Source of the DNA: an uncultured Prevotellaceae bacterium
GTDB lineage: Bacteria > Bacteroidota > Bacteroidia > Bacteroidales > Bacteroidaceae
DNA: 44,721 nt
Reading direction: 5' to 3'
Assembly (NCBI GenBank): GCA_900320565.1
Contig: ONSR01000006.1
Location: 1 to 44,721, forward strand
Shown here: in pieces, positions 1,571 to 36,077 of the stretch
Numbering within the stretch: the stretch's first letter is position 1
How the letters are laid out: each line of letters begins with the position of its first letter
The notes under the pieces: generated by a model
Database searches by the model: none
Seen by the model: only the letters and a program-made list of their open reading frames with translations
What the model was told of the DNA's origin: nothing
Made by a program: the position numbers and the translations under genes

Positions 1571-1658
1571 CTTGGCACGTCATCTTTGTAAACTTAACAC
1601 GTTAAGTTCGTCAACTTGGCACGTTAAGTTTGCCAATTAAGCACGCCTAGTTTTTCCA
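1571..1658 (+). repeat. 22-nt repeat array A (4 units)
   Basis: Four units of exactly 22 nt: 1571-1592, 1593-1614, 1615-1636 and 1637-1658. Each has CAC at unit positions 6-8 and a spacer like TTTGCCAA at the end. Unit 2 has the perfect hairpin arms CTTAA-CACG-TTAAG. The array lies about 50 nt downstream of the stop of the 1707-2165 gene. Confidence 0.85.
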
Positions 1659-1706
1659 ACACCTTAACCTATTTATTCTATGAGCTTTACCTCTTTCTGG
1701 GAAAGG

Positions 1707-2165
1707 CTATTGTAAACTTGTGATTTTGATGTGTTGTGCGAGTTCTTTTTCCTTGTAGAAGCCGCCAATATGCATGATGATATAGGTGCATCCGTCGAAC
1801 TCAATCACCATATCCTTATAGCCGTTTTCGCTCTCCCAAACACGGATGTCAAACAATTTGTTTAGGAGAAATTTTTTGAATAGGTTTCCTTTGATTTTCA
1901 GAACCTTAGTTGTCTTTAGTTTCTTGAAACCTTTAATCTGCTCGTACTCGCTGAAAAACGGCTGGATGAGGCTGGTTGCTTCGCCAAAATCCAAAGTTTC
2001 GAGTACCTTGACACCCGTTTCGTCTGGAATGGAATCCTTGCTGTTTTTGTATTCTACGGCTGGGTTGTTTCTGTATTTGAAAATCAATAGATCCAGCTCT
2101 TTGTTCTGTGCCCAACCCGAAGCGAAAGCCCAAAACGCTAATATTAATAATGTATAACGCCTCAT
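1707..2165 (-). CDS. small secreted protein of unknown function
   Basis: A 152-residue protein with a clear signal peptide ([20 protein letters not shown]), so it is probably periplasmic or surface associated. The mature part is mixed-charge, with no cysteine pair or catalytic motif that I recognise. The size and the C-terminal pattern of short beta strands (MVIEFDGCTYIIMHIGGF) resemble the DUF4252-like small exported proteins of Bacteroidetes, but this is only an impression. Its ATG overlaps the uvrA stop (ATGA, 2162-2165), so translation is probably coupled to uvrA. A 22-nt repeat array follows its 3' end. Confidence 0.75.
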   Translation of the reverse strand: MRRYTLLILAFWAFASGWAQNKELDLLIFKYRNNPAVEYKNSKDSIPDETGVKVLETLDFGEATSLIQPFFSEYEQIKGFKKLKTTKVLKIKGNLFKKFLLNKLFDIRVWESENGYKDMVIEFDGCTYIIMHIGGFYKEKELAQHIKITSLQ

Positions 2166-4942
2166 TTTGTATGCTCTTCTTTTGGAGTTCCACAGTAAAG
2201 AACCTCGCCACCATTGCGTCCTCCGCCTGGTCCCATCTCGATAATCCAGTCGGCAGAACGGATGATGTCGGGATTGTGCTCTATGACGATAATCGTATTG
2301 CCTTTGTCCACCAGCCTGCCAAGCACGTCGAGCAGGACGCGAATGTCCTCGAAATGCAGTCCTGTAGTGGGTTCGTCGAGGATGTAGAGCGTGCGTCCCG
2401 TATCTCTTCGAGCCAGTTCTGCAGCCAATTTGACGCGCTGACTCTCACCTCCAGAAAGGGTGTTGCTGGGCTGACCAAGTTTGATGTAACCCAATCCGAC
2501 TTCCTGCAAGACCTTAATCTTACCAAGTATCGTGGGCTGATTGGCAAAGAACTCAACCGCTTGATTGATAGTCATATCCAGAACATCCGCGATGCTCTTG
2601 CCTCGGAACCTGACTTCGAGCGTCTCTCTGTTATAGCGCTTTCCTCGACATTCCTCGCAAGGCACGAAGACGTCGGGCAGGAAGTTCATCTCGATGGTGC
2701 GGTAACCATTGCCGCCACAAGTTTCACAACGTCCACCTTTCACGTTGAAGGAGAATCTGCCAGGCTTGTAACCTCGGATTCTTGCCTCAGGAAGTTCCAC
2801 GAAAAGCTTGCGGATGTCAGTAAAGACATCTGTATAAGTGGCTGGATTAGAGCGAGGTGTGCGGCCAAGAGGACTCTGGTCAACGTCAATTATCTTGTCG
2901 ATATTCTCCAGTCCCTCAATGGCTTTGTAGGGCAGAGGTTCAGCCAGCGAGCGATAGAAATGCTTGCTCAGGATGGGGTAGAGCGTTTCGCTGATGAGCG
3001 AACTCTTGCCGCTTCCGCTCACGCCAGTTATGCAAATCAGTTTTCCAAGCGGGATGCAGACGTCGATATTCTTCAGGTTGTGACCGCTCGCACCCTTGAT
3101 GGTCAACGAAAGACCGTTGCCTTTTCGATATTCTAAAGGTGGGTCGATTGTCAGTTCGTTCTTCAGATATTTGCTTGTCAGCGTGTCTTTTTTCAGCATT
3201 TCCTTGTAAGTTCCCTGGAAGACGACTTCGCCTCCTCGACGACCAGCAAGGGGACCTATATCGACGATGTAGTCAGCATTCTCCATCATCTCTCGGTCAT
3301 GTTCCACGACCAGCACGGTGTTGCCTGCGTCTCGAAGTGCCTGAAGGGAATGGATGAGCTTGATGTTGTCGCGCTGATGCAGGCCGATACTGGGTTCGTC
3401 GAGTATGTAGAGGACGCCTACAAGCTGGCTTCCGATCTGTGTTGCCAAGCGGATTCGCTGACTCTCGCCACCAGAAAGACTCATCGAGGGACGCGAAAGT
3501 GACAGATAGTCAAGTCCGACATCAAGCAGGAACTTCAGTCTGGTCTTTATTTCCTTTGTGATTTCCTGTGCAATAGCCAATTGACGCTTGCTGATTCTCT
3601 TGTCCAAACCTTCCAGCCATTCGTAGAGCTGTCCCAGTTCAAGAGCAGATACTTCGGCGATATTCTTGCCGTCGAGCAGGAAGTGAAGCGACTCTTTTTT
3701 CAATCTTTGGCCTTTGCATTCGGGGCATTCACAGGTTCCGCTGAACTGCTCGGCCCATCGCTGAGCCGCAACACCAACTTCAGCATCCTTCATTTGCTCA
3801 ATGTATTTGACCAAACCGTCGAATTCCGTATAGACATCATTCGTGGTTTTCGTCTTGCTGGCACTAATTCGGATGCGTTCAGGACTGCCCTCCAAGATTT
3901 CGTCTATCGCTTCTTCAGGAACCTCGCCAAGTGGTGTATCGGCCGTACATCCATAAGATTCGAGCACAGTTTCCACTTGCCAGAATATCATAGCCTGCTT
4001 TGCTTTGCCAAGCGGAGCGAAGCCTCCGTCGCGAAGCGAAAGGGTAGGGTCGGGAATGACCTTGTTTCGGTCGATGATATGAACGAAGCCAAGGCCCTTG
4101 CAACGCGGGCAAGCGCCTTGAGGACTGTTGAACGAGAAGTCGTGAGGAGCTGGGTCGTGATAGGAGATACCTGTTGTGGGGCACATCAAGTGCTTGCTGT
4201 AATGGCGCACTTCGTTTGTGTCCATATTGCAGACAAGCATTTCGCCTTCGCCTTGCTTCATGGCAATGGCGACACTCTGAACGAGTCGCTTATCGTCTCT
4301 CTCCTGCACTTGAAGGCGGTCAATCACAACCTCGATGCTATGATTGCGATAGCGGTCGAGCTTCATGCCAGGCAAGAGTTCCTGCATTTCGCCGTCCACG
4401 CGAGCATAGAGATATCCTTTGCGACGGATGTTCTCGAAGAGTTCCTTGTAGTGTCCCTTGCGGTTCTTGACGAGCGGAGCCAGCAGGATGATGCGTTTCC
4501 CCAGGTATTCATTCAGGAGCAGGTCAATAATCTGCTCTTCCGTATAGCGCACCATCTTCTCGCCAGTGACGTAGGAATAGGCTTCGGCAGTCCTTGCGTA
4601 AAGCAACCTGAGGAAGTCATATATCTCGGTAGTTGTGCCGACGGTACTTCTGGGGTTCTTGTTGGTGGTCTTCTGCTCGATGCTGATGACGGGACTCAGC
4701 CCTGTAATCTTATCGACATCGGGTCGTTCCATTCCGCCCAAGAAGTTGCGAGCATAAGCACTGAACGTCTCGATATAGCGGCGCTGACCTTCTGCATAAA
4801 TGGTGTCGAAAGCAAGCGACGACTTTCCACTACCGCTGAGACCAGTAAATACAGTAAGACTGTTACGCGGAATCTCAACGTCCACGTTCTTCAGATTATG
4901 GACGCGAGCACCCTCCACGCAAATCTTCTGTTCACTCGCCAT
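2162..4942 (-). CDS. uvrA: UvrABC excinuclease subunit A
   Basis: UvrA is the damage-sensing ATPase dimer of nucleotide excision repair and loads UvrB. Both ABC ATPase halves are present: Walker [10 protein letters not shown] near the N-terminus and GVSGSGKSS in the second half, with two LSGGESQR signatures. The second zinc module is intact (CETCGGNG ... PCEECRGKR). The first has CPTTGISY instead of the usual CPxCG, so one expected zinc-binding cysteine is replaced by threonine. I place the start at ATG 4942 ([19 protein letters not shown], 926 aa) because homologs begin about there; this overlaps the upstream gene by 11 nt. In-frame ATGs at 4966 and 5014 would give longer overlaps. The stop is coupled to the next gene. 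Confidence 0.96.
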
Positions 4943-5699
4943 CTGTGGTGCCTTCGCTTTCGGCATTGTTGTAACTTGTAATGACGTTGATGGCTTTCTT
5001 GATGTTGTAGTCAATGCCGTCGCTTCCCTTGGCTGTTACGCGAAGGAAATAGACGCCGTCTTTCACGACTTTCCCATTCACCTTACCGTCCCATCCGCCA
5101 TGTATGTCGTCCCACGAATAGAGCTTCTTTCCCCAGCGATTGAATATTGCTGCATGGAATTCTACAATACCCTTGAAGCCTTCTTTGGGTTTGAGCTCAT
5201 CGTTCTGACCTATGCTGCAGCCTGGAGAGATGCCGTTAGGGAACTCCAACTTGCTTTCGCTGATAGAGAATCTGATGGTTTTGGGGTCTTCGCCTTCTTC
5301 GGGGAATTCGTAGAGGATGTTTTCCCCCTCTTCGTCATAGAATCGGGCATTCAGCTGAACAGCATAGCTGCCGCTTTCGTTGAAATCCATCTCGAGTTCC
5401 TCGAACTCGCCATATTGACTGCCACGACGCAGGATGGGTTCGCTCGTGTTGCCGCCTGTGTTGGTTTTCGTGTTAGTGATAGTCCAGGTGTAGAGCACGT
5501 TGCACGGCTCGCTCAGATTGGCCTTGAACACTATTCGGACAGGTGCGCTCAGCGGCTTTGTGTCGGGAGCAATGACATCAGTCTCTTCCTCTCCCTCTTC
5601 ATTGGTTAGGTAATATGTGGCGGATGGGTCAACTGTTGGTGATTGTGCCCAAGCCATAAGAGGCATCAGAACAAGGAAAAAGAATAGGATACGCTTCAT
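4932..5699 (-). CDS. secreted protein with gliding-motility-type C-terminal (CHU_C) domain
   Basis: A 255-residue exported protein with signal peptide [19 protein letters not shown]. The C-terminal third (about residues 165-240) matches the CHU_C/type B sorting domain: [22 protein letters not shown] and [13 protein letters not shown] are diagnostic. Such domains are associated with the type IX secretion system. The middle is a beta-rich PKD/Ig-like segment (VLYTWTITN), so the protein may be an adhesin-like or cell-surface fragment. It is short for this class. Its 3' end overlaps the start of uvrA. A divergent promoter pair separates it from the LysM gene. Confidence 0.85.
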
Positions 5700-5716
5700 C
5701 TTTTATATATTTTGTG

Positions 5717-5724
5717 CAAAAATA
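5717..5724 (-). promoter_or_regulatory. -7 element for the CHU_C protein/uvrA transcript
   Basis: TATTTTTG on the minus strand fits TAnnTTTG and lies 18 nt upstream of the start codon at 5699. No clear -33 TTTG is visible; the upstream DNA is a heptamer array. Confidence 0.5.
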
Positions 5725-5730
5725 CAAAAT

Positions 5731-5765
5731 AATTATGAACTATGAACTATGAATTATGAATTATT
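5731..5765. repeat. heptamer array between divergent promoters
   Basis: Five consecutive 7-nt units (AATTATG, AACTATG, AACTATG, AATTATG, AATTATT) fill the DNA between the two divergent -7 elements, where the -33 regions would normally lie. Confidence 0.85.
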
Positions 5766-5769
5766 TTCG

Positions 5770-5777: not shown

Positions 5778-5782
5778 CATAG

Positions 5783-7108
5783 ATGAAACGTATTTTAATA
5801 CTTCTTTATTGTCTTTGGCCGATGCTTTTATTCGGTCAGGGCATACTTTCGACGCTCGAGGGCATGCATTCCGTTGTCAAGGGCGAGACTTGGGAGAGTG
5901 TGGCTGCCAATTACGGCGTCTCTATCATGGAGCTTCAGGCTGCCAATCCTGACGTGAAACGCCAGAAGTTGAAGAAAGGCACTTTGCTGATTATCCCCAA
6001 GAAGCAACAACAGATAAGCTATGTGCCTGTCAGTGAAGTGCCAGAGAAGCCACTCCGAGTTATTCGTACCGTCATATCCGACCTGAAGGTTGGCGTGATG
6101 CTTCCGCTTAGCGACAAGAAGATGGTGGAGTTCTATCGTGGCTTGCTGATGGCTGCGGACAGCGTTCGCAAGAGTGGCGTCAATCTCGACATCCATGCGT
6201 GGGATTGCGGAACAACTTCTGCTCAGGTCGAGGCTTTACTTCCAAAGATAGGTGAGTTGGACGTGCTGTTCGGTCCTGCTTCTGCGACGCAGATTCCTGC
6301 TGTGGCCGAAGCCTGCAAGGAACGTGGAACACGTCTCGTTCTACCTTTCTTCACGGGCCAAACCATGCAGGATTATCCGCTCGTCTATAACGCTACGCCT
6401 TCCAATACTGTCCTCTTCGAAGCTGCTACCAAGAAGTTTATGAGTTTTTATGCGGACAGGAACTATGTAATCGTGAACAGCGGCAAAACGGATTTCAAGG
6501 GCAAACTGCTGACAGAAGCTATCACTCAGGGGCTTTCCGAGCGTTCCGTAACGCCCAGAACACTTGCCATCGAAGGCGATGATTTCGCCTATGAGACTGC
6601 CTTCAATCAGTTCCGCGAGAATATGATTGTCCTCGATGACAGCAGCCTACCTTCGCTTAACACTCTCCTTTCGCACCTAAAAGCGTTCCGCCAGAATCAT
6701 CCGCAGTACCGCCTTTCGCTCGTCGGTTATTCCGAATGGCAAGACGAAGCAGAGACGCTGATGGGCGATTTCTTTGCCTTCGACACCTATATCGTCTCTC
6801 CATGCTATTATAATCGTTTGGACGACAGGATAAAGCGCTTCGAGCGCACCTATGCAAGGAACTTCCGCGCATACATCTTGAAGGAGAATCCTCGCTATGC
6901 AGCCTTGGGGTTCGACCTCGGGTGTTACTTCCTGACGGGCCTCGCTACGCAAGGCGACACTTTCGAACAGATGCAGAATAGCCTTCGCCAGAAGCCCTAC
7001 CAGAACTGGTTCCGCTTCGAGCGCAGCACATCGGGATTGAGCTTCACCAACAGCTTCGTCCAGTTTATCCATTACACACCCGAAAGCAAGATAGAGCTAA
7101 TCCGATGA
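5783..7108 (+). CDS. LysM-domain periplasmic ligand-binding protein
   Basis: A 441-residue exported protein. After a signal peptide (MKRILILLYCLWPMLLFGQG) comes one LysM peptidoglycan-binding repeat (residues ~29-72, HSVVKGETWESVAANYGVS ... GTLLIIPKK). It is followed by a type I periplasmic-binding-protein fold resembling branched-chain amino-acid/amidase-regulator receptors (VGVMLPLSDKKMVEFYRGLLMAADSV, LFGPASATQIPAVAEAC). This architecture is common in Bacteroidetes, where these proteins are probably wall-anchored sensors or scaffolds rather than transporter subunits; that role is inferred. It ends with an ATGA overlap into the next gene, an outer-membrane barrel, so the two are co-translated. 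Confidence 0.88.
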   Translation: MKRILILLYCLWPMLLFGQGILSTLEGMHSVVKGETWESVAANYGVSIMELQAANPDVKRQKLKKGTLLIIPKKQQQISYVPVSEVPEKPLRVIRTVISDLKVGVMLPLSDKKMVEFYRGLLMAADSVRKSGVNLDIHAWDCGTTSAQVEALLPKIGELDVLFGPASATQIPAVAEACKERGTRLVLPFFTGQTMQDYPLVYNATPSNTVLFEAATKKFMSFYADRNYVIVNSGKTDFKGKLLTEAITQGLSERSVTPRTLAIEGDDFAYETAFNQFRENMIVLDDSSLPSLNTLLSHLKAFRQNHPQYRLSLVGYSEWQDEAETLMGDFFAFDTYIVSPCYYNRLDDRIKRFERTYARNFRAYILKENPRYAALGFDLGCYFLTGLATQGDTFEQMQNSLRQKPYQNWFRFERSTSGLSFTNSFVQFIHYTPESKIELIR

Positions 7109-7824
7109 AACGCCTCCTTTTCATTTTTCATTTTTCATTTTTCATTTTTCATTTAGCGTTAGCTCAGGTCGGCGAGCCGCGCACAGACCTTGCCATAGGC
7201 GTTAATGGTGGCGTTGCTGTGAACAAAGTCATGTTCAAGCCCTCCATCAAGCAAACTTTCAAGCCAGGTGCAGTGATGGGCGTTACGGTGCGCTACACTT
7301 GCGAGAAGTATTTCAAGATGCTCTGCGCTTTTCAAGGGGAAGTCAACTATTCGCAAGCGGGCTGGAAGGAGAAGACGGAGAGTGGCGACAACCTGTATCA
7401 GCGAACAGTCCATTACGTTCAGATTCCCCTGCTGGCCAATCTGGGCTTCGGACGTGAACATGGAGGCGTGAAAGGCTTCCTCAATGTCGGACCGCAACTG
7501 GGCTTTGTCATAGGCGAGACGGTGAAGACAACAGGCGACGGTTCAGGTTATGTCCCTCCTCAGTTTCTGCTCGAGGGCCTGCCCAATCAGCACGACATGA
7601 ACGTAGAGAAGAAGTTCGAATACGGCATTACGGGCGGCCTCGGAATGGACATCAGCACGAAGAACGGCCACCATTTCATCATCGAGGGCCGCTACTTCTA
7701 TGCTTTGAGCGACATCTTCGGCAACTCGAAGAAAGACCCCTTCGCCCGTAGCGCCAACAGCACCATCATCGCCAAAGTGTCCTATCTCTTCGACATCAAA
7801 AAGACTTCAATCAATAAGGATTGA
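7105..7824 (+). CDS. outer-membrane beta-barrel protein (PorT-like family)
   Basis: A 239-residue protein with alternating beta-strand segments (TDLAIGVNGGVAVNKV, GVMGVTVRYTCEKYFKM, LQGEVNYSQAGWK, HFIIEGRYFYALSDIFG) ending YLFDIKK, typical of the small outer-membrane barrel (OMP_b-brl_2/PorT-like) families of Bacteroidetes. The signal peptide is unusual. Its hydrophobic core is encoded by five perfect tandem copies of TTTTCAT (7118-7152), so gain or loss of one unit would shift the frame. It overlaps the LysM gene by 4 nt (ATGA). PorT itself is a type IX secretion component; calling this protein PorT would go beyond the evidence. Confidence 0.87.
   Translation: MKRLLFIFHFSFFIFHLALAQVGEPRTDLAIGVNGGVAVNKVMFKPSIKQTFKPGAVMGVTVRYTCEKYFKMLCAFQGEVNYSQAGWKEKTESGDNLYQRTVHYVQIPLLANLGFGREHGGVKGFLNVGPQLGFVIGETVKTTGDGSGYVPPQFLLEGLPNQHDMNVEKKFEYGITGGLGMDISTKNGHHFIIEGRYFYALSDIFGNSKKDPFARSANSTIIAKVSYLFDIKKTSINKD
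7118..7152. repeat. five perfect TTTTCAT tandem copies in the signal peptide
   Basis: The units are 7118-7124, 7125-7131, 7132-7138, 7139-7145 and 7146-7152, all identical. They encode the repeating FHFSFFI hydrophobic core. Seven is not a multiple of three, so copy-number change by slippage would frameshift the gene after about ten codons. Confidence 0.95.
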
Positions 7825-7936
7825 TAATTTCAATCGATCTAGTGTCATTTTGTCACTTTTTGCACACTCGTCAAAAGTGTGGAATATGCATAGATTATGC
7901 AAGGATTTGCCCGACTCTACAGGTGGGGTTTTCAAA

Positions 7937-8024
7937 CTTCACGTGTGAAGTTTTCAAAGTCCACGTGTGAAGTTTCAAAATTCCTCGTGTGAAGTTTACC
8001 GACATCACGCGTCAAAAAGTGTGC
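7937..8024 (+). repeat. 22-nt repeat array B (4 units)
   Basis: Units 7937-7958, 7959-7980 and 7981-8002 are clear; 8003-8024 is degenerate. Unit 1 has perfect arms CTTCA-CGTG-TGAAG. Relative to array A the stem bases change on both sides (A to C with T to G). The array starts 113 nt after the stop of the beta-barrel gene. Confidence 0.75.
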
Positions 8025-11114: not shown

Positions 11115-12328
11115 CTGCAGATGTTCACGACGGTCATCATGGCCTTCTCCATGCTTTGGATGGGCAAGAACTCGTGGCGTCCGTGGAAGTTCAGGCCGCC
11201 TGCGAAGATGTTGGGGCAGGGGAGTCCTTTGAAGCTGAGCTGAGCGCCGTCTGTGCCGCCTCGGATGGGCACAACGTTGCAGAAACCACAAGCCTCCTCG
11301 ATGGCCTTCTTGGCGATGTCTGTCACCTGCGGTTTGTCCTGCAGTTGGCTCAACATATTATAATATTGGTCCTTCACTTCGGCCTTAACTGTCCCCTCTC
11401 CGTACTTGGCGTTCAACTTCTCTGCAAGGTCGAGAACAACCTGCTTGCGGCGCTTGAAGATGTCGCTGTCGTGGTCGCGAATGATGTATGAGAGCTGAGC
11501 CTCTTCCACGCTGCCGCTCATGCCAGTCAGGTGGTAGAACCCTTCGTAACCTTCTGTTGTCTCAGGTCTCTCATTCTCAGGCAATAAGCTCTGGAACTCT
11601 GAAGCTATGATGCAAGCGTTCTTCATCTTGCCTTTGGCGTAACCAGGATGCACGTTGCAGCCCTTGATGAGTATCTTTGCGCTGGCTGCATTGAAATTTT
11701 CGTACTCCAGTTCGCCCGCCTCGCTGCCGTCCATCGTGTAGGCCCATTCGCAGCCGAATTTCTCGACGTTGAACAGGTGAGCTCCTGCGCCAATCTCCTC
11801 GTCGGGATTGAAAGCGACGCGAATCTTGCCGTGCTTGATTTCCGGATGCGTCATCAGGTAGGTCATCGCAGTTACAATCTCAGCAATTCCAGCCTTGTCG
11901 TCAGCGCCCAGAAGTGTGTGGCCGTCAGTGACGATGAGGTCCTCGCCGATGTGCTCTTTGAGCTCAGGGAACTGGCTAACGGTCGTCACGATGCCATCTT
12001 CCTTGCAGAGCACGATGTCCTGTCCGTCGTAGTTCTCGATGATGCGAGGCTTGATGTCCTTTCCGCTGCAGTCGGGGCTTGTGTCCATGTGGGCGATGAA
12101 GCCGATGGTGGGCACCTGTTTGTCGGTGTTGGCAGGCAGAGTGGCATAGACGTAGCCGTGCTCGTCCATCTCGACTTCCGTGAGGCCAAGTGCTTTCAGC
12201 TCGTCGCGCAAGTATTCAGCCAAAGCAAACTGCTTCTCTGTGCTAGGGCATTGTGACTCGTTTTCCTCGCTACTCTGCGTATCGAAGCTAACGTACTTCA
12301 GAAAACGTTCGGTTAATTCATAATTCAT
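11096..12328 (-). CDS. pepT: peptidase T (tripeptide aminopeptidase)
   Basis: A 410-residue M20B metallopeptidase releasing the N-terminal residue from tripeptides in the cytoplasm. The metal-site motifs are present: [33 protein letters not shown] and [14 protein letters not shown], with [20 protein letters not shown] near the C-terminus. Length matches the family. Both ends are made from heptamer repeats: the ATG and MNYEL come from AATTCAT units (12315-12328), and the last residues IHNL plus stop come from the array at 11080-11114. The gene therefore fits exactly between two repeat blocks. It lies between pth and the S4 gene in the same direction. Confidence 0.96.
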
Positions 12329-12342
12329 AATTCACAATTCAT
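12315..12342. repeat. heptamer array over the pepT start codon
   Basis: Units AATTCAT (12315-12321), AATTCAT (12322-12328), AATTCAC (12329-12335) and AATTCAT (12336-12342). The pepT start codon (12326-12328) is part of the second unit. Confidence 0.85.
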
Positions 12343-12373
12343 AATTGCCGAGTTGAAAAGTTGTGACTTTTAT

Positions 12374-14056: not shown

Positions 14057-14144
14057 CACGACACGCTGCGGTGGCCAACGCAGCACGTTAAGTTGCTCAA
14101 CTAAGCACGTTAAGTTGCTCATCTTGGCACGTTAAGTTTGCTTA
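14057..14144 (+). repeat. 22-nt repeat array C (4 units)
   Basis: Units 14057-14078, 14079-14100, 14101-14122 and 14123-14144, each with CACG at unit positions 6-9; the first is divergent. It lies 85 nt downstream (3' side) of the M13 peptidase gene. Confidence 0.85.
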
Positions 14145-14228: not shown

Positions 14229-16271
14229 CTACCAGATGGTGACGCGCTTCTCCTTCGGCACGAACATTGGGTCGGATTCCGTGATTCCGAAGGCTTCGTA
14301 CCAGGCGTCGATGTGTGGCATCTGTCCGTTCACACGCCACATTCCCAGCTGGTGTGGGTCGCTCTTCACACGCTTCTGAATCTCCTCGTCGCGGATGTTC
14401 TGACCCCATACGTTGGCGTAGGCGAGGAAGAATCGCTGCTCGGGCGTGAAGCCGTCGATGACATCAAGCGGTGCATCCTTGGTGGCATTCTTGAAGGCTT
14501 GGAAAGCGACCATCAGTCCACCGTGGTCGGCCATATTCTCGCCGAGTGTGAGAGAGCCGTTGGCATGAAGTCCGGGCAGAACCTCGATGCTGTCGTGGAA
14601 CTCACGCATCACCTGAATGCGCTCTTCGAATTGCTTGGTGTCCTCTTCGCTCCACCAGGTTACGAGGTTGCCGTTCTTGTCGTACTTGCTGCCCTGGTCG
14701 TCGAAGCCGTGCGTCATTTCGTGACCAATCACGACACCGATGGCTCCGTAGTTGAAAGCATCGTCGGCCTGCATGTCGAAGAAGGGCGGCTGCAGGATGC
14801 CTGCGGGGAAGCAAATTTCGTTGGTGGTTGGGTTGTAGTAGGCGTTGACGGTCTGTGGCGTCATGTACCACTCGTCCTTATCGACAGGCTTGTTGAACTT
14901 GGTCTTAATCATGTCCTTGATTTCCCATTCGCCCACGGCAAGCATGTTGCGGAGGTAGCTGTCGCCAATCTCGAGCTCGCTGTAGTCCTTCCATTTGTCG
15001 GGATAGCCTACCTTCACGTAGAAGGCATCGAGCTTCTCGCGAGCCACCTTCTTCGTCTCGTCCGACATCCATTCCTGAACATCGATACGTTCGCCCAGAG
15101 CAATCTGGAGGTTCTTGATGAGCTTCTCCATGCGAGCCTTCGCTTCGGGCGGGAAATACTTGGCAACGTAGAGCTGGCCGAGGGCTTCGCCAAGACCACC
15201 TTCAACGGCAGCAACAGCACGCTTCCAGCGCGGACGGTCCTCTTCCTTTCCGCTCATCACTTTGCCGTAGAAGCCAAAGTTCAGGGCGCGGCTCTCGTCG
15301 TCGATGAAGGACGAAACCATATCGATTGCGTGCCAGAGGTAGATGTTCTGCTGGGCTTCAACAGACTCTTCTGCAAGCACTTTCTCCACCTCGTGAATGG
15401 CTGCGGGCTGACCGAGGCAAACCTCCTTCACACCTTCCATTCCGAAGTTCTGGAAGAAGCCTTCCCAGTTGATGCCAGGGAACTCTTTCAGGAGTTCGTC
15501 ATAGGAGATTTTGTTGTAGTTGGCTTCTGGGTCGCGAAGTTCTGTACGGCTCTTGCTTGCAACAGCAAGTCGGGTCTCAATACGTAGAACATCTTCGGCA
15601 ATCCGTTGGGCATCCTTCTCGCTAAAGCCAGTGTGCTGACAGAGGTCAACGATGTACTTCTGATAGGCTTTTCGAATCTCCAGCGTCCTCGGGTCGTTAT
15701 CTACATAGTAGTCCTTCTGACCAAGCGTGAGACCACCCTGAACGATGTTCACGAGGTTGTTCTTGGAGTCCTTCTCGTCGGCTCCGATATACATGGAGAA
15801 CAAGCCAGGAACGCCTTGTCTCTGCATGCGAGGCCAAACCTGAGCAATCCAATCTACCGTGATGTCAGTTGAGTTCTGATAGCCGTCACAGAGCAGGAAC
15901 TCCTCGAGGGCGCCCCAGTAGTGTTCGTTCAGGTTCACGCTATCCATGGCGGAGTTGTAGAGGTCGGCAATCTTCTGCTCGATGGAACCCTTCTCATTCT
16001 CCTTAGAAGAGACTTCCTCGATGAGCGAACGCAGACGCTCGTTGTTGTCTTCGCCAAGCTGGTCAAATGAGCCGAAGCGGCTATACTCGGCCGTCAAGGG
16101 ATGAGCCTTCTGCCAACCACCTGTGGCAAACATGTAAAAATCTGTTCCAGGCTGATAGGTTGAGTCAAGATTGGCGAGGTCTATGCCAGAAGCCAGTTGC
16201 TTGCCATTAGGCGTACAAGCTGCAGTCAATGCTGCCAAAGCAAATGCCATAATAAGTTGATTTTTTTTCAT
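14229..16271 (-). CDS. M13 family (neprilysin/PepO-like) zinc endopeptidase lipoprotein
   Basis: A 680-residue secreted metallopeptidase cutting oligopeptides outside the cytoplasm. The signal sequence ends in a lipobox (ALAALTAAC), so it is probably lipid-anchored. Catalytic motifs: substrate-binding VNAYYNPTTNEICFPAGIL, zinc-binding VIGHEMTHGFDDQGSKYD (HExxH near residue 516) and the third-ligand motif ENMADHGG. The protein ends RVTIW, keeping the terminal W of neprilysins but not the usual C of CxxW. Length is normal. The upstream DNA is the 42-bp repeat element, so no promoter could be placed. Confidence 0.95.
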   Translation of the reverse strand: MKKNQLIMAFALAALTAACTPNGKQLASGIDLANLDSTYQPGTDFYMFATGGWQKAHPLTAEYSRFGSFDQLGEDNNERLRSLIEEVSSKENEKGSIEQKIADLYNSAMDSVNLNEHYWGALEEFLLCDGYQNSTDITVDWIAQVWPRMQRQGVPGLFSMYIGADEKDSKNNLVNIVQGGLTLGQKDYYVDNDPRTLEIRKAYQKYIVDLCQHTGFSEKDAQRIAEDVLRIETRLAVASKSRTELRDPEANYNKISYDELLKEFPGINWEGFFQNFGMEGVKEVCLGQPAAIHEVEKVLAEESVEAQQNIYLWHAIDMVSSFIDDESRALNFGFYGKVMSGKEEDRPRWKRAVAAVEGGLGEALGQLYVAKYFPPEAKARMEKLIKNLQIALGERIDVQEWMSDETKKVAREKLDAFYVKVGYPDKWKDYSELEIGDSYLRNMLAVGEWEIKDMIKTKFNKPVDKDEWYMTPQTVNAYYNPTTNEICFPAGILQPPFFDMQADDAFNYGAIGVVIGHEMTHGFDDQGSKYDKNGNLVTWWSEEDTKQFEERIQVMREFHDSIEVLPGLHANGSLTLGENMADHGGLMVAFQAFKNATKDAPLDVIDGFTPEQRFFLAYANVWGQNIRDEEIQKRVKSDPHQLGMWRVNGQMPHIDAWYEAFGITESDPMFVPKEKRVTIW

Positions 16272-22636: not shown

Positions 22637-23515
22637 ATGAAGGCTGAAGATATGACTTTCCGGACTGTTGTGGACGTGCCGAAATGGGTAAATCCAATGC
22701 AGAAACATCAACACTTTGTGTTGTTGGGTTCGTGTTTCGCTCAGAGCATAGGCGAGAAGTTTCAAAGCTACGGATTGAATGTCGTCTGCAATCCTTTTGG
22801 GGTAACCTACAATCCTGAAAGCATCTTAATCCAAGCTAAGCAAGCATTAACGGCTGGTGAGGAATTGCCCATCTTCCGCTTCAACGAACAGGAATGGCAT
22901 TGCTGGTTAGCTAATACGCTTATACACGATTCGGATGAGGAACGATTGCGTGAGACCATTCGGGATATGTTCTCTCAACTCGGAGAAGCTCTTCGGAAAG
23001 CAGATTTCATCTTCATAACCCTCGGAACGAATGTGTGTTATCGCTTGAAGGAAAGTGGTTTGACTGTAGCGAACTGCCACAAGCAACCTGATGCTCTCTT
23101 CGAGGAAGTTAAATTAGATGCAGTGAAGTGTTCAAAGTTAACGTGTGAACTTGTCGAATTACTCACGTGTAATTGCCCAACTTCACACGTGATCTTTACC
23201 GTAAGTCCATACCGTTATAAGAAGTATGGCTTCCATGAGAGTCAATTATCAAAGGCCGCTTTGCTCCTCGCTGTTGATGAGGCCTGCAAACGCTACCCTG
23301 AGAAGGCAAGCTATTTCCCTGCTTACGAAATACTGCTCGACGAACTTCGCGACTATCGTTTCTATGCCGACGATATGATACATCCATCTCCTTTTGCCGT
23401 AGATTACATCTGGCGAAGATTAGTGGAAAACTGCATGGATAACGAGATGCAACAATACCTTAAGGACTATGAATCTATCAGAAAAGCAAAAGGGCACAAA
23501 GCCTTTAGCCGATAA
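22637..23515 (+). CDS. GSCFA domain protein carrying an in-frame 22-nt repeat array
   Basis: A 292-residue protein of the GSCFA family (SGNH/GDSL-like hydrolase fold). The name-giving motif is FVLLGSCFAQSIGEKF. IFITLGTNVCYR, IFTVSPYRYKKYGF and DDMIHPSPFAVDYIWRRL match the later blocks, the last carrying the likely D-x-x-H catalytic pair. The substrate is unknown. Residues ~167-188 (LTCELVELLTCNCPTSHVIF) are encoded by three units of the 22-nt repeat. Three units equal 66 nt, which keeps the frame. The segment is in the helix before the VSP strand, and the last unit encodes part of that conserved strand. A heptamer array follows the stop. Confidence 0.85.
   Translation: MKAEDMTFRTVVDVPKWVNPMQKHQHFVLLGSCFAQSIGEKFQSYGLNVVCNPFGVTYNPESILIQAKQALTAGEELPIFRFNEQEWHCWLANTLIHDSDEERLRETIRDMFSQLGEALRKADFIFITLGTNVCYRLKESGLTVANCHKQPDALFEEVKLDAVKCSKLTCELVELLTCNCPTSHVIFTVSPYRYKKYGFHESQLSKAALLLAVDEACKRYPEKASYFPAYEILLDELRDYRFYADDMIHPSPFAVDYIWRRLVENCMDNEMQQYLKDYESIRKAKGHKAFSR
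23137..23202 (+). repeat. 22-nt repeat array E inside a coding sequence (3 units)
   Basis: Units 23137-23158, 23159-23180 and 23181-23202 have the same 22-nt period, core (ACGTG/CACGTG) and spacer (TTGCCCAA-like) as the intergenic arrays. They lie within the GSCFA gene, in frame. Confidence 0.8.
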
Positions 23516-23521
23516 ACAATG

Positions 23522-23577
23522 AAACTCTAAACTATCAACTAACCCTAATCTTTCAACTTTAAACTCTAAACTATAAA
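23522..23577. repeat. heptamer array up to the murF-alr start codon
   Basis: Eight units (AAACTCT, AAACTAT, CAACTAA, CCCTAAT, CTTTCAA, CTTTAAA, CTCTAAA, CTATAAA) fill the gap between the GSCFA stop and murF-alr. The final A is the first base of the ATG (23577-23579). Confidence 0.85.
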
Positions 23578-25940
23578 TGTACAATACTCTCGAAATAGCA
23601 TCCTTTATTGGCGCAAAGACAGAAGGCTTGAAGGGCCGCGAGATTGACTGGTTGCTGACGGACAGTCGCAGCCTTTGTTATCCGGAATCAACGCTATTCT
23701 TTGCCATCAAAACTGAAGTAGGAAACGGACATCTTTATGTTAATGACCTCTATCAAAGAGGCGTTCGAGCCTTCGTGGTGAGCGAAGAAGTGGAGGGAGA
23801 CTTCCCTGAAGCCGATTTCCTTTTCGTGCAGAACACCCTCTTTGCACTCCAATCTCTTGCGGCTCAGCATCGTTCTCGTTTCGATGTACCTATTATAGGA
23901 ATTACGGGCAGTAATGGTAAGACTGTCGTCAAGGAGTGGCTCTATCAACTCTTGGCACCTGATTTCGCTGTTACCCGCAGCCCTCGCAGCTATAACTCCC
24001 AAACGGGTGTGCCTCTTTCTGTGTGGGGGCTTAACGAGAACACGCAGATTGGTATCTTCGAGGCAGCCATTTCAAAGAAGAACGAAATGGTGGCTCTGGA
24101 GCGCATCATCAAGCCTACAATCGGCATCTTTACTTGTTTGGGCGGAGCTCATCAGGAGAACTTCTCGACCTTCGAAGAAAAGTGTATGGAGAAGCTTCAG
24201 CTGATGAAGGATGCGAAGGTTGTCATCTATCCTGCAGGCGACTCTGTGATAAAGGATTGTATTCGTCAAGCCAGGCTGAAGGGAAGACTCGTTCCTTGCC
24301 CCACTACAGGTAATGCCTACGAGGACAACGAGGCTTTGTGTCGTGCTGCTTGCCGTGAGATGGGACTCGATGACGACACGATAGAAGAACGTCTGCGTGC
24401 CCTCGAACCTGTTGCAATGCGTCTCGAGGTGAAGGATGGACAGAACGACTGCACTCTCATCAATGACTCGTATAATAGTGATATAAGCAGTCTGGACATT
24501 GCACTCGATTTCATGAATCGCAGACCTGAGAAAGAAGGCCGTCAGCGCACCCTTATCTTGAGTGACATCTTGCAGAGTGGTGTCGAACCACATGCTCTCT
24601 ACACTCAGCTTGCTGACTTGCTTGAGCAACGCGGCATCAACAATCTGCTGGCTGTAGGAGGCGTTATTTCCGCTCACATGAACTGCTTTGCAGGCTTACC
24701 CATTTGTTGTCGCTTCTTTGCCAACACAGATGCGCTCTTGCAGGACGATATTCTCTCTCGCCTCGAGCATCAACTCATCCTCATTAAGGGTGCACGTAAA
24801 TTCCACTTTGAGCGCATTACAGACCGATTGGAGAAGAAAGTCCATGAGACTATCCTTGAAGTTAACCTCAGCGCAATCGTGCAGAACCTCAACTACTATC
24901 GCTCTTTCATGAAGCCAGAAACGAAGATGATTTGCATGGTAAAGGCTGATGCTTATGGAGCGGGAGCAGTCGAGGTGGCAAAGACCCTGCAGGACCACAA
25001 TGTAGATTATCTTGCTGTTGCTGTTGCTGATGAAGGTGTGACACTTCGCGAGAAGGGTATCACGCAGGGAATCATGGTGATGAATCCTGAGATGAGCAGC
25101 TTCAGCGCTCTCTTTCAATACAATCTTGAGCCAGAGATTTACAGTTTCCGATTGCTCGATGCACTCATCTATGCTGCTGAGCACGAAGGTATTACAAACT
25201 TCCCTGTACACATTAAGCTCGATACAGGAATGCATCGTCTTGGCTTCGACCCTGAGAAGGATATTCCCAGACTCATCGAGCGCTTGAAACGACAGACTGC
25301 TCTCATTCCTCGTTCAGTATTCTCGCACTTTGTTGGCAGCGACTCTGATGACTTCGACGACTTCTCTGCAAAGCAATATGAGTTGTTCTTGAAGGGCAGC
25401 AAGCAATTGCAGGAAGCCTTCCCACATCCCATACTGCGGCACATCTGCAATAGTGCTGGCATTGAACATTTCCCAGACCGTCACCTCGAGATGGTGAGAC
25501 TTGGGCTTGGGCTTTATGGCATCAACAGTCGCAACAACGAAACCATTCACAACGTCAGCACCCTTCGCACAACAATCCTGCAGATTCACGATGTGAAAGC
25601 AGGCGAAAGCGTTGGTTATAGCCGAAAGACGATTCTCGAAAGAGACAGTCGTATTGCAAGCCTGCCAATTGGATATGCCGACGGACTGAACAGGTTGCTT
25701 GGCAACAGGAAAGGCTATTGCCTTGTTAACGGGCAGAAGGCAGATTATGTGGGCAACATCTGTATGGATGTCTGCATGATAGATGTTACTGATATACCTT
25801 GCGAAGAAGGCGACCTCGCTACTATCTTTGGTGATGAACTCTCGCCAGCAGAACTCGCTTCCCGTTGTGGCACGATTCCTTATGAAATCCTTACAGGCAT
25901 AGCACCACGCGTGAAACGCATCTTCTTCGAGGACAAGTAA
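23577..25940 (+). CDS. bifunctional MurF-like ligase/alanine racemase fusion
   Basis: A 787-residue fusion. Residues ~1-425 are a MurF-type Mur ligase with ATP loop GITGSNGKTVVKEW, EAAISKKNEM and INDSYNSDISSLDIALDFM. Residues ~428-787 are a fold-III PLP alanine racemase: MICMVKADAYGAGAVEVAK contains the PLP lysine, HIKLDTGMHRLGF and SVGYSRKTILERDSRIASLP follow, and YVGNICMDVCMIDVTD is near the end. Together they would make D-alanine and add D-Ala-D-Ala to the peptidoglycan precursor. This fusion is known in Bacteroidetes and coexists with a normal MurF, as here (30691-31986). Whether the fused ligase half is active is unclear, though the ATP loop is intact. Confidence 0.95.
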   Translation: MYNTLEIASFIGAKTEGLKGREIDWLLTDSRSLCYPESTLFFAIKTEVGNGHLYVNDLYQRGVRAFVVSEEVEGDFPEADFLFVQNTLFALQSLAAQHRSRFDVPIIGITGSNGKTVVKEWLYQLLAPDFAVTRSPRSYNSQTGVPLSVWGLNENTQIGIFEAAISKKNEMVALERIIKPTIGIFTCLGGAHQENFSTFEEKCMEKLQLMKDAKVVIYPAGDSVIKDCIRQARLKGRLVPCPTTGNAYEDNEALCRAACREMGLDDDTIEERLRALEPVAMRLEVKDGQNDCTLINDSYNSDISSLDIALDFMNRRPEKEGRQRTLILSDILQSGVEPHALYTQLADLLEQRGINNLLAVGGVISAHMNCFAGLPICCRFFANTDALLQDDILSRLEHQLILIKGARKFHFERITDRLEKKVHETILEVNLSAIVQNLNYYRSFMKPETKMICMVKADAYGAGAVEVAKTLQDHNVDYLAVAVADEGVTLREKGITQGIMVMNPEMSSFSALFQYNLEPEIYSFRLLDALIYAAEHEGITNFPVHIKLDTGMHRLGFDPEKDIPRLIERLKRQTALIPRSVFSHFVGSDSDDFDDFSAKQYELFLKGSKQLQEAFPHPILRHICNSAGIEHFPDRHLEMVRLGLGLYGINSRNNETIHNVSTLRTTILQIHDVKAGESVGYSRKTILERDSRIASLPIGYADGLNRLLGNRKGYCLVNGQKADYVGNICMDVCMIDVTDIPCEEGDLATIFGDELSPAELASRCGTIPYEILTGIAPRVKRIFFEDK

Positions 25941-25989: not shown

Positions 25990-26098
25990 CGAGGCACAGC
26001 TAAATGCCAAACTTAACACGCTTAGTTGCTCAACTTAACGTGCTTAGTTGCTCAACTTAACACGCTTAATTGCCCAACTAGGCACGTTAAGTTTTGCA
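25990..26098 (+). repeat. 22-nt repeat array D (5 units)
   Basis: Units 25990-26011, 26012-26033, 26034-26055, 26056-26077 and 26078-26098 (last one base short). They begin about 50 nt after the murF-alr stop. Three adjacent units are nearly identical (CTTAACACGCTTAGTTGCTC type). Confidence 0.88.
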
Positions 26099-29880: not shown

Positions 29881-30614
29881 TCAGTCTGCAAAACCTTACA
29901 GTCGGCTACGGCGAAAAAGCCATCCTCTCCGACATCAACCAAACGCTCGAACCAGGTCGTCTTGTTTGTCTGCTCGGCTCGAATGGTGTGGGGAAAAGCA
30001 CCATTCTGCGCACTTTGGCAGGCTTCCTGCAGCCCCTGGCGGGAAAGGTATTGCTTGACGGCAAAGACCTCTCGTCGCTCTCCCTATCGCAAAGGAGCAA
30101 AACCGTCTCCATCGTGCTGACAGAGAGAGTTGGAGTGCCGTACATGAAGGTTGCCGATCTCGTAGGGATGGGGCGTTCGCCCTATACAGGCTTCTTCGGG
30201 AAGCTCACGAAAGAAGACAGGCAGATTATCGGCGAAGCCATCGAAATGGTGGGAATCAGCAGTCTCGCCGAGCGAACCATCGACACCCTGAGCGACGGCG
30301 AGCGGCAGAAAGCCATGCTCGCCAAAGCACTCGCCCAACAGACACCCGTCATCCTGCTCGACGAGCCCACTGCCTTCCTTGATTTCCACGCCAAGATAAG
30401 CATGCTCCGGCTGATGCAGAAACTTGCTCACGAGACAAACAAAATCATCCTCATGAGCACGCACGACGTCGAAATGGCGCTCCGGCTGAGTGACTTGCTT
30501 TGGATTGTTCAGGACGGCAAGATACAGACAGGCACGACGGCTTCCCTCACCGAAAGCGGTATCCTCCGTCAGTTCCTTGGCGATGAAGCCATCAGTATGC
30601 AAACGAGAAAGTGA
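29877..30614 (+). CDS. metal-chelate ABC importer ATPase
   Basis: A 245-residue ABC ATPase of the FecE/BtuD type. Walker A is CLLGSNGVGKST, the Q-loop region is VSIVLTERVGV, the signature is LSDGERQKAMLAKALAQ, Walker B is VILLDEPTAFLDF and the switch is MSTHDVEMALRL. The signature has LSDGE, as is usual in this subfamily. I start at ATG 29877 (MISLQNLTVGYGEK), which overlaps the GH20 stop; the longer frame from 29772 would read deep into the GH20 gene. It completes the importer begun at 26190. A 22-nt repeat array follows the stop. Confidence 0.94.
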   Translation: MISLQNLTVGYGEKAILSDINQTLEPGRLVCLLGSNGVGKSTILRTLAGFLQPLAGKVLLDGKDLSSLSLSQRSKTVSIVLTERVGVPYMKVADLVGMGRSPYTGFFGKLTKEDRQIIGEAIEMVGISSLAERTIDTLSDGERQKAMLAKALAQQTPVILLDEPTAFLDFHAKISMLRLMQKLAHETNKIILMSTHDVEMALRLSDLLWIVQDGKIQTGTTASLTESGILRQFLGDEAISMQTRK

Positions 30615-30619
30615 GAAAA

Positions 30620-30685
30620 TGACACACGTGAAGTTTGCCAACTTCACACGTTAAATTTGCCAACGAAACACGTTAAGTTTGCAAA
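30620..30685 (+). repeat. 22-nt repeat array F between convergent genes (3 units)
   Basis: Units 30620-30641, 30642-30663 and 30664-30685, each with CACG at unit positions 6-9 and a TTTGCCAA/TTTGCAAA spacer. The array fills almost the whole 76-bp gap between the ABC ATPase stop and the murF stop. Confidence 0.88.
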
Positions 30686-30690
30686 CATCT

Positions 30691-31986: not shown

Positions 31987-32008
31987 AGTCTTGTTTCGTT
32001 TTCTGGCA

Positions 32009-32016
32009 CAAAGTTA
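32009..32016 (-). promoter_or_regulatory. -7 element for murF
   Basis: TAACTTTG on the minus strand, 22 nt upstream of the murF ATG at 31986. Confidence 0.55.
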
Positions 32017-32035
32017 AACCTTTTTTTCGGATTTC

Positions 32036-32066
32036 TTGCCATTTATATAAATAATGTGTAATTTTG
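32036..32066 (+). promoter_or_regulatory. folP-cdaA promoter
   Basis: TTG (32036-32038), 20 nt, TAATTTTG (32059-32066). The GTG start of folP follows 19 nt later. Confidence 0.6.
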
Positions 32067-32085
32067 TGCGAAATTAAAGTGAGTT

Positions 32086-33686: not shown

Positions 33687-33726
33687 ACAACTCAGATTAC
33701 TTAAAACACTCAGAAATAATATCACT

Positions 33727-34734
33727 ATGGAATTAATGGAACAAATCATCGCTCGAGCCAGGTCCTGCAAGCAGCGCATCGTGCTGCCCGAGAGCTTGGA
33801 GGAGCGAACGCTAACGGCTGCGGACAAAGCCTTGGCCGACGACTTGGCAGACATCATCCTGATTGGCAAACCAAGTGAAATCTTTGCGCTTGCTGACAAG
33901 CTTGGGCTTAAACACATTGACAAAGCCACAATCATCGACCCCGAAACAAACGAAAAGACAGAGACTTACGTCCAGCTCTTCTACAACCTCAGGAAGAACA
34001 AAGGCGTGACAGAGGAAGAGGCTCGCAAGAAAGTGAAAGATCCTCTCTACTATGGCTGCCTCATCATCAAGAACGGTGATGCCGACGGACAGATTTCGGG
34101 TGCACTCTCCACGACTGGCGACACCCTTCGTCCTGCTCTGCAAATCATCAAATGCGCTCCTGGCGTGAGTTGCGTGAGTGGTGCTATGCTGATGATTACC
34201 CCAGCCAAGCAATATGGCGAGAATGGTGTTCTGGTGATGGGCGACGTTGCAGTAACGCCAATGCCCGATGCTAATCAGCTTGCTCAGATTGCTGTTTGCA
34301 CGGCTCAGACTGCCCGAAGCGTGGCAGGCTTCAAGGAGCCTCGCGTAGCTATGCTCAGCTTCAGCACGAAAGGAAGCGCAAGTCACGAAGTTGTGGACAA
34401 AGTTGTTGAAGCCACGAAGAAGGCCCAAGAGATGGATCCCACGCTTCAAATCGATGGTGAACTGCAGGCAGATGCAGCTCTCGTGCCAAGCGTAGGAGAG
34501 AAGAAAGCTCCTGGCAGTCATATTGCAGGCAAAGCGAATGTGCTTGTAGCGCCCTGCTTGGAGGTAGGCAACATCGGCTACAAACTCATTCAGCGCCTTG
34601 CTGGAGCCGAAGCCATCGGTCCCATCCTGCAGGGCATCGCTCGTCCTGTAAACGACCTTAGCCGCGGCTGTTCAGTAGATGATATATATAAGATGATTGC
34701 AATCACTGCTTGCCAAGCAATGGATGCGAAGTAG
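33727..34734 (+). CDS. pta: phosphate acetyltransferase
   Basis: A 335-residue short-form Pta (no N-terminal regulatory domain) converting acetyl-CoA and phosphate to acetyl phosphate. Motifs: RIVLPESLEERTLTAADKA, DPLYYGCLIIKNGDADGQIS, GALSTTGDTLRPALQII, VAMLSFSTKGSA, and GPILQGIARPVNDLSRGCSVDDI at the end. It is followed by ackA with a 19-nt gap, forming the acetate-producing, ATP-yielding pair expected of a fermenting anaerobe. Confidence 0.96.
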   Translation: MELMEQIIARARSCKQRIVLPESLEERTLTAADKALADDLADIILIGKPSEIFALADKLGLKHIDKATIIDPETNEKTETYVQLFYNLRKNKGVTEEEARKKVKDPLYYGCLIIKNGDADGQISGALSTTGDTLRPALQIIKCAPGVSCVSGAMLMITPAKQYGENGVLVMGDVAVTPMPDANQLAQIAVCTAQTARSVAGFKEPRVAMLSFSTKGSASHEVVDKVVEATKKAQEMDPTLQIDGELQADAALVPSVGEKKAPGSHIAGKANVLVAPCLEVGNIGYKLIQRLAGAEAIGPILQGIARPVNDLSRGCSVDDIYKMIAITACQAMDAK

Positions 34735-34753
34735 TTCACTTTTCACTTAAAAT

Positions 34754-35944
34754 ATGAAGATATTAGTTCTCAACTGCGGCAGCAGTTCAATAAAATATGC
34801 ACTTTACAACATGGACGACCAGTCCGTCATCACGAGTGGCGGTATTGAGAAGATTGGTCTGCCCGATTCGTTTATAACCGTCAAGCTGAATGGCGAGAAG
34901 CACAAGATGGAACATCCCATCAAGGAGCATACCGCTGGTGTGCAGTACATCTTCGAGGTGCTGACAAGTGGCGAGTATGCCGTTCTGAAGAGCCTCGAGG
35001 AGCTTGATGCAGTAGGTCATCGCATGGTGCATGGCGGAGAGAAGTTCAACAAATCGGTTCGCCTGACACCTGAAGTGATGAAGGCTTTCGCTGAATGTAA
35101 CGACCTTGCGCCTCTTCATAATCCTGCCAACATCAAGGGCGTAAATGCCGTCACAGCACTTCTGCCAAACATTCCGCAGGTTGGCGTGTTCGATACCGCT
35201 TTCCACCAGACGATGCCCGATTACGCTTATATGTATGCACTTCCTTACAACCTCTACAAGGAGTATGGCGTACGTCGTTACGGCTTCCATGGAACGAGCC
35301 ATCGCTACGTGAGTCAGCGTGTCTGTGAGTTCCTTAGCTGCAAACCCGAGGAGAAGCGAATCATCACCTGCCACATCGGTAACGGCGCCTCGATTGCTGC
35401 CGTGAAGTACGGCAAGTGCGTCGATACTTCGATGGGCTTGACGCCTCTCGAAGGCTTGATGATGGGCACTCGTACTGGCGACATTGATGCTGGAGCTGTC
35501 ACCTATCTGATGGACAAGTTCAACCTCGACACGAAGGGCATCAGCGACCTGCTGAACAAGAAGTCAGGCCTTGCAGGTGTGAGCGAAGGAAGTAGCGACT
35601 TCCGCGACATTCTGGCAGGCATTGCTGCTGGCAACGACAAAGCTCGTCTGGCAAAAGAGATGTACACCTATCGCATCAAGAAGTATATCGGCGCATACGC
35701 TGCAGCGATGGGTGGTGTTGATATCATCCTCTTTACTGGCGGTGCAGGCGAGAACCAATGGGAAGTTCGCGAAGGAGCGACGAATGGCCTCGAGTACATG
35801 GGCGTCAAGATGGACGTGACAAAGAATCGCAGTTGCCGTGCTACGGAAGCCATCCTGAGTGCCGACGATAGTCAGGTGACAGTTTGCTGCATCCCCACGG
35901 ACGAGGAACTCATGATAGCCCTCGACACCCAAGCCCTCTGCTAA
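34754..35944 (+). CDS. ackA: acetate kinase
   Basis: A 396-residue enzyme transferring phosphate from acetyl phosphate to ADP. Motifs: MKILVLNCGSSSIKYALYN, VGHRMVHGGEKF, GVFDTAFHQTMP, RRYGFHGTSHRYVSQR, CHIGNGASIAAVKYGKCVDTS, MGLTPLEGLMMGTRTGDID and FTGGAGENQWEVRE. Length is standard. It is the last gene of the pta-ackA pair. A 22-nt repeat array begins 23 nt after its stop, before the convergent leucine-rich-repeat gene. Confidence 0.97.
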   Translation: MKILVLNCGSSSIKYALYNMDDQSVITSGGIEKIGLPDSFITVKLNGEKHKMEHPIKEHTAGVQYIFEVLTSGEYAVLKSLEELDAVGHRMVHGGEKFNKSVRLTPEVMKAFAECNDLAPLHNPANIKGVNAVTALLPNIPQVGVFDTAFHQTMPDYAYMYALPYNLYKEYGVRRYGFHGTSHRYVSQRVCEFLSCKPEEKRIITCHIGNGASIAAVKYGKCVDTSMGLTPLEGLMMGTRTGDIDAGAVTYLMDKFNLDTKGISDLLNKKSGLAGVSEGSSDFRDILAGIAAGNDKARLAKEMYTYRIKKYIGAYAAAMGGVDIILFTGGAGENQWEVREGATNGLEYMGVKMDVTKNRSCRATEAILSADDSQVTVCCIPTDEELMIALDTQALC

Positions 35945-35967
35945 GAGTTCCAAAGGTAAAGTAAAAA

Positions 35968-36077
35968 CTAAGCGTGCCTAGTTCTTCAACTAAGCACGCT
36001 TAATTTGTAAATTAGGCACGTTAAGTTTGCCAATTAGGCACGTTATGTTTTCAAACTACACATGTGGCGTTTGAGGA
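35968..36077 (+). repeat. 22-nt repeat array G between convergent genes (5 units)
   Basis: Units 35968-35989, 35990-36011, 36012-36033, 36034-36055 and 36056-36077. The last unit ends one base before the stop codon of the leucine-rich-repeat gene (36079-36081), and the array fills nearly the whole gap. Confidence 0.88.

Follow-up and report, generated by a model that had tools for sequence, protein, structure and literature searches.

Several described systems share features with the repeat arrays reported here. Tandem operator or centromere-like arrays, such as ArgR boxes, parS/parC-type iterons and iteron origins, likewise place dyad sites about two helical turns apart for cooperative dimers, but the present arrays lie at dozens to hundreds of dispersed places, have no linked regulator or replicon, and carry a motif that varies by species. 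Protein-roadblock terminators (TTF-I Sal boxes and Reb1) are known from eukaryotic rDNA and are also tandem sites after genes; the analogy is functional only, binding and termination being putative for the arrays. CRISPR loci are likewise tandem and partly palindromic, whereas the 22-bp unit described here includes an 8-bp linker of common consensus, unique spacers are absent, and the arrays are many, short and dispersed. RAYT transposases are tied to REP elements, and 22-bp repeats have been mentioned for Porphyromonas gingivalis. According to one study, REPs lie mostly downstream of genes, between convergent or co-oriented genes, form species-specific families and show a G-U pairing bias (PMC3733652). 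Like REP/BIME elements, the arrays are short, high-copy intergenic palindromes downstream of genes that differ by species, with a 3' preference only in the source genome and one relative, and they turn over and spread in a similar fashion. Unlike them, they have a strict 22-bp head-to-tail pitch, the source-genome consensus shows no GTAG/CGTC tag on inspection, and the source genome, which is 89% complete, gave no RAYT gene match. With neither tag nor enzyme found there, membership of the REP/RAYT system was rejected.

The analysed DNA is a 44,721-nt stretch from an uncultured Prevotellaceae bacterium (assembly GCA_900320565.1, contig ONSR01000006.1), hereafter the window, which makes up most of contig C62 of the source genome, G000, a 2.63-Mb draft in 122 contigs. 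Judged by acetate kinase, its nearest named relatives are MAGs that carry the labels Bacteroidaceae, Prevotellaceae or Bacteroidales; many of them come from ruminant gut, and two are Candidatus Minthosoma. A first-pass annotation of the window had listed seven arrays with 28 units of 22 bp, six of them intergenic and close to stop codons; all seven were present at its coordinates, none with an assigned strand, and the six distances were confirmed. The four-unit array at 1571..1658 lies between two minus-strand genes, 48 nt past the stop of one that ends at 1707. Another four units at 7937..8024, with a possible weaker extra unit ahead of them at 7907-7936, begin 112 nt past the stop of an outer-membrane beta-barrel gene (7105-7824). 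At 14057..14144, four units preceded by a weaker fifth lie 84 nt past the stop of an M13-peptidase gene (14229-16271, minus strand), where an ordinary hairpin terminator comes first and the array stands behind it. The five-unit array at 25990..26098 is 49 nt past the stop of a Mur-ligase/alanine-racemase fusion gene (23577-25940). Two arrays nearly fill gaps between convergent genes, as had been noted: three units at 30620..30685, 5 nt from each of the gene ends at 30614 and 30691, and five units at 35968..36077 between the ends of acetate kinase (35944) and a leucine-rich-repeat protein (36079), 23 and 1 nt from the two stops. The sole genic array of the seven, three units at 23137..23202, lies within a GSCFA-domain gene (22637-23515). 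TRF reported the 22-nt period for six of the seven; the genic array fell under its threshold, yet the profile described below finds it. The flanking genes, where checked, are ordinary.

The window arrays belong to a real dispersed family. With up to three mismatches, CACGTTAAGTTTGCCAA had 13 matches in the window against a mean of 0.05 over 100 shuffles, and with up to two mismatches this 17-mer had 86 matches in the whole genome against none for the reversed pattern. A profile built on the window arrays and refined on a 444-kb sample of the source genome gave 90 strand-hits scoring above 18 in that sample, against 1 in the reversed control, and identified 46 arrays. Extrapolation gives roughly 270 arrays genome-wide, a density that is possibly overestimated because the 20 stretches of the sample come from contigs with motif matches. 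The source-genome consensus is CTTAA-C-RY-G-TTAAG-TTTGCAAA, in which the C and G flanking RY and the TT opening the linker are the strongest columns, followed by the AA closing it. Most arrays have 3-6 units, namely 42 of 46 in the source genome and 49 of 51 in G007, the relative of the same clade whose arrays were analysed alongside; part of the peak at 4-5 units is due to selection, as the array score cut of 20 penalises one- and two-unit arrays. The family had been thought to match no described system; Rfam models gave no match to the window at gathering thresholds, and a search of mainly openly accessible literature, in part-text form, found no description of such arrays. Viral carriage was rejected on a single exact word, the 19-mer CTTAACACGTTAAGTTTGC, which had no match in IMG/VR. 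The Bacteroidetes -7 promoter element is TANNTTTG; inspection shows TAAGTTTG within the G000 unit, but this identity was discarded, since other species have unrelated motifs that do not resemble TANNTTTG. Phased A-tract bending was set aside as well, since the arrays of G002 and G020 are GC-rich.

The pitch was measured by scoring single units without any spacing rule. In the source genome and G007, 260 pairs of neighbouring units were separated by no more than 50 nt, and in 247 of these the distance was exactly 22 bp; in 7 it was 44 and in 6 it took other values, never 21 or 23. Units that follow one another at 22 bp differed on average at 7.0 of their 22 bases, a divergence of 32%. In three other species, all 71 neighbour distances below 100 nt, among the matches listed, were multiples of 22. 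One 21-nt step, in locus L081, is an exception.

The same geometry recurs across the genus. Stretches from 22 genus genomes were scanned for periodicity irrespective of sequence, an uncounted number of low-complexity arrays being discarded. Period 22 accounted for 169 arrays between genes and 15 within them, period 21 for 18 intergenic and 65 genic arrays, and period 23 for 10 and 3. At least one array with dyad z >2 occurred in 17 of the 22 sampled genomes, and none in G003, G005, G006, G009 (at most 20 kb sampled each) and G011. Of the 21 genus genomes that offered sufficient gaps, 12 had their highest intergenic autocorrelation at lag 22; among 17 genomes of other families, lag 22 shared the top in one (G047). 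Twenty samples of at most 20 kb from other families contained three intergenic period-22 arrays, and G047 had seven sites against three in the control, two of the seven being 22 nt apart; period-22 arrays outside the genus, those of G047 included, are suggestive only.

The sequences that carry this geometry are largely particular to their species. Each of three motifs tested is nearly private to one of 61 genomes (37 of the genus and 24 of other families, both strands searched): the G002 motif had 98 matches in its own genome and at most 3 in each of the 60 others, the G021 motif 376 and at most 9, and the G016 motif 27 and at most 5. The window's own 17-mer CACGTTAAGTTTGCCAA, with one mismatch allowed, occurred in 9 of the 37 genus genomes and 0 of the 24 from other families. 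At the 3' end of acetate kinase, the window motif is present in the window, L080 and L081; L083, with an acetate kinase 97% identical, has a 21-nt array of unrelated dyad sequence at the gene end, and several other loci have plain terminator hairpins instead of arrays. This genus-wide 22-bp architecture with unrelated, species-specific sequences was not visible from the single window.

Because training on both-strand matches symmetrises the profile, arrays defined without it and left unoriented were used to test the dyad. Its z exceeded 2 in 39 of 64 arrays of the source genome, 43 of 47 of G007 and 31 of 58 of other species, leaving 27 of these 58 at or below 2, including 6 of the 11 listed for G020. 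On inspection, G002, G016 and G021, for example, show a conserved dyad of some 14 bp and a variable 8-bp linker. The earlier annotation had described units with perfect arms and paired changes, and had suggested selection on a hairpin or a protein-binding dyad. Perfect arms did not hold as a rule, with 5% of 193 G000 units fully complementary against 4% after shuffling. The covariation analysis it had called for was divided: arm pairing in G000 (0.494) exceeded the value from a genome-wide shuffle (0.411, z 5.6) but not clearly that from a within-array shuffle (0.477, z 1.4), and in G007 the corresponding z values were 1.9 and 2.7. Arrays between co-oriented genes showed no sense-strand excess of G-U, with G-U/A-C counts of 55/81 in G000, 23/27 in G007 and 85/106 in other species. 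A transcribed hairpin would give an excess in both tests, while a dimeric protein reading half-sites predicts neither, and a symmetric profile without clear within-unit pairing is as expected of two half-sites read separately. Accordingly, the RNA hairpin was rejected as the main reading and the suggestion of 3'-end RNA structure was not borne out; the protein-binding half of the earlier proposal stood, the dyad resembling a DNA site repeated, as proposed, about every two helical turns. The arrays differ from REP/BIME elements in these respects too, lacking both the G-U pairing bias and a paired single-strand stem (the 5% against 4% above, with a slight z of 2.7 in G007).

A directional, asymmetric core was also rejected: on the sense strand CGTG outnumbered CACG in G000 (58 vs 36, p 0.03), and this bias was absent from G007 (31 vs 34), leaving no consistent direction. 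Half-site words form a discrete set, and positions inside an arm are strongly linked; GATGG, for instance, occurred in 9 arrays against 0.6 expected. Such words may descend from a few copied units or reflect several half-site specificities.

Gene ends for the placement analysis came from a purpose-made hexamer-based caller rather than a standard gene-calling program, and 5 of 46 arrays in G000 and 2 of 51 in G007 were left unclassified at stretch edges. Random placement would have put 41.5 of the 46 G000 arrays within genes; 3 were found there. In G000, an array was present in 8 of the 22 convergent gaps of at least 70 nt, in 26 of the 85 co-oriented ones and in 3 of the 28 divergent ones; the corresponding figures for G007 were 14 of 23, 24 of 76 and 7 of 35. 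In co-oriented gaps, 45 of 51 arrays lay closer to the upstream stop than to the downstream start (23 of 26 in G000 and 22 of 25 in G007). The placement just after gene ends that had been noted in the window holds in G000 and G007. Many G000 gene ends have no array. The other species of the genus did not show the 3' bias: their 55 convergent gaps contained 6 arrays, their 251 co-oriented gaps 18 and their 83 divergent gaps 9.

A role in termination, one of the functions suggested earlier, received divided support. In G000 and G007 together, terminator-like hairpins were fewer at convergent ends with an array (10 of 36) than at those without (34 of 66), but co-oriented ends did not differ (14 of 46 vs 36 of 124), nor did other species (convergent 4 of 10 vs 46 of 112; co-oriented 2 of 7 vs 51 of 272), and the M13-peptidase array sits behind its ordinary terminator. 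That arrays replace terminators is weakly supported; these counts, with the terminator ahead of the M13-peptidase array, indicate that the arrays are not simply the terminators.

Exact pitch, a profile-level dyad, intergenic placement, clade-limited 3' placement, turnover and species-specific motifs can all be read from the sequences, and we tentatively interpret each array as a lattice of sites for a putative dimeric DNA-binding protein, an interpretation whose probability we set a little short of even. Each site would be a dyad spanning some 14 bp (NNNNN-C-RY-G-NNNNN in this genome), and the more variable 8-bp linker would set the 22-bp spacing, with some 3-6 dimers predicted to lie on one DNA face, two helical turns apart, and presumably to bind cooperatively. 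Judged by its position after gene ends, such a lattice might act in both directions as a transcriptional roadblock or insulator, or might anchor the nucleoid. Whole units are gained and lost, arrays come and go from one species to another, and multi-unit blocks that resemble one another recur at different loci; the recognised sequence would have switched to another dialect in other species while the 22-bp geometry has stayed. The lattice fits best because the geometry is fixed, the sequence is free, and the profile is symmetric without clear pairing, and a pitch that stays exact at 7.0 substitutions per 22 bases supports it. Several observations count against it: copying of ready-made units between loci would keep the pitch too; L081 contains a 21-nt step; dyad z is at most 2 in 27 of 58 arrays of other species; the 3' bias is absent from those species and many G000 gene ends lack arrays; and a dialect that varies by species is odd for a housekeeping site.

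The main rival, which we consider rather unlikely, is that the arrays are REP/BIME-like palindromes, selfish or passively copied, kept in 22-bp register by an enzyme or by recombination and without host function. Comparison of three gene ends across 30 genus loci each (90 loci, with a flank of at most 5 nt in five, an N flank in one and less than 90 nt in two) showed the whole-unit changes between relatives that such copying would leave. At the end of a murC-like gene, G000 carries 3 units of the motif and G075 carries 7, and G077 has an array whose motif is related; at the end of the alanine-racemase fusion gene the motif was found only in G000; and at the M13-peptidase end it was found in G000, G075 and G035, that of G035 being exactly 44 nt shorter, while G007 has an array elsewhere in the gap. 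Arrays at different G007 loci matched at up to 91% over 110 nt, and two alignments extended well past the arrays, 354 nt in G000 and 268 nt in G007, both statements applying among the matches listed. Half-site words that recur above expectation (GATGG) and motifs nearly private to one species also speak for copying. RAYT (Y1_Tnp), by contrast, exceeded the cut-off in 9 of 37 genus genomes, two copies being in G021, yet had no match in G000, G007 or G002 and one under the cut-off in G016; G000 lacks a single-strand hairpin signature, and copying alone leaves unexplained why unrelated motifs have a single geometry in common. The lattice and selfish copying are compatible, and both can be true.

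Two further alternatives were weighed. That the arrays act as RNA, forming runs of weak hairpins at the 3' ends of mRNAs that terminate transcription or protect the transcript, seems to us improbable: their nearness to stop codons, the terminator-poor convergent ends of G000 and G007 (10/36 vs 34/66) and some motifs, such as that of G021, which on inspection are hairpin-like and followed by T runs, agree with it, but the G-U/A-C counts give no sense-strand excess, G000 arms show no covariation beyond array membership, terminators are not depleted at co-oriented ends or in other species, a normal terminator precedes the M13-peptidase array, and gapless palindromes like AACCATGGTT allow no loop. 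More improbable still is neutral replication slippage of short intergenic palindromes, without spread or function. Although whole-unit loss and expansion by identical units were both observed, slippage is at odds with one consensus common to the dispersed arrays of a genome, with the lack of any step of 21 or 23 nt at 32% divergence in the G000 and G007 scan, and with a single favoured period across unrelated motifs.

If the lattice reading is extended beyond the source genome, the arrays could form a system that organises the chromosome or insulates transcription across a whole genus of rumen Bacteroidales, with a conserved geometry of dimer sites exactly 22 bp apart, in intergenic runs of some 3-6, and a DNA word that is replaced by species; we regard this as possible but doubtful. 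The replacement of dialects might be driven by array turnover and by a dimeric DNA-binding protein that evolves quickly, a bacterial counterpart of rapidly changing binding dialects. HU-HIG proteins matched at E <1e-12 in all six array-bearing genomes tested (G000, G007, G002, G016, G021 and G047, the last counted as array-bearing on one dyad array only), and their best match in nine other-family genomes was 1.6e-10. As a candidate binder HU-HIG is a lead, its distribution following phylogeny and proving nothing. One array in G016 (G016:C10:59111-59731) lies about 170 nt upstream of one of the 19 HU-HIG matches in that genome, possibly by coincidence. Bacterial repeat families are mostly known by sequence, while here the spacing is fixed and the sequence free. 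The lattice reading predicts a cooperative dimer, a 22-bp lattice and species-specific specificity, and the many species with different motifs offer material for a search for the binder by co-variation. If such a lattice blocks transcription, it would constitute an unrecognised protein-based separation of transcription units in a major rumen bacterial group.

Other repeats were observed in the same material. An intergenic duplication of 354 nt in G000 (L051, about 2998-3351, and L055, 15053-15406; 91.5% identity) includes a 22-nt array. In a close relative, L084 contains nearly ten almost identical 22-nt units at 5017-5233, which looks like a recent expansion, and L141 has several different 22-nt-period arrays side by side at 4936-5650 in one MAG. 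Period-7 tandem repeats (for example AATTATG, TTTTCAT and GGTCAAT) occur in the window at 5730-5766, 7115-7160, 12313-12347 and 42070-42103 and elsewhere in G000. Of the 48 such arrays in the 444-kb sample, 20 have their centre no more than 50 nt from a start codon, where 8% would be expected at random, and 14 no more than 50 nt from a stop; periods 5, 6, 8, 9, 10 and 11 gave 0-2 arrays each. A CTCCCCCTTAAAGGGGGAG-like palindromic repeat of about 75 nt is present in L041 at 6129-6203, where it is intragenic, and in the window at 43638-43672; it gave 9 local alignments, self-matches counted, within the G000 sample and many short matches in G026, G035 and G075.
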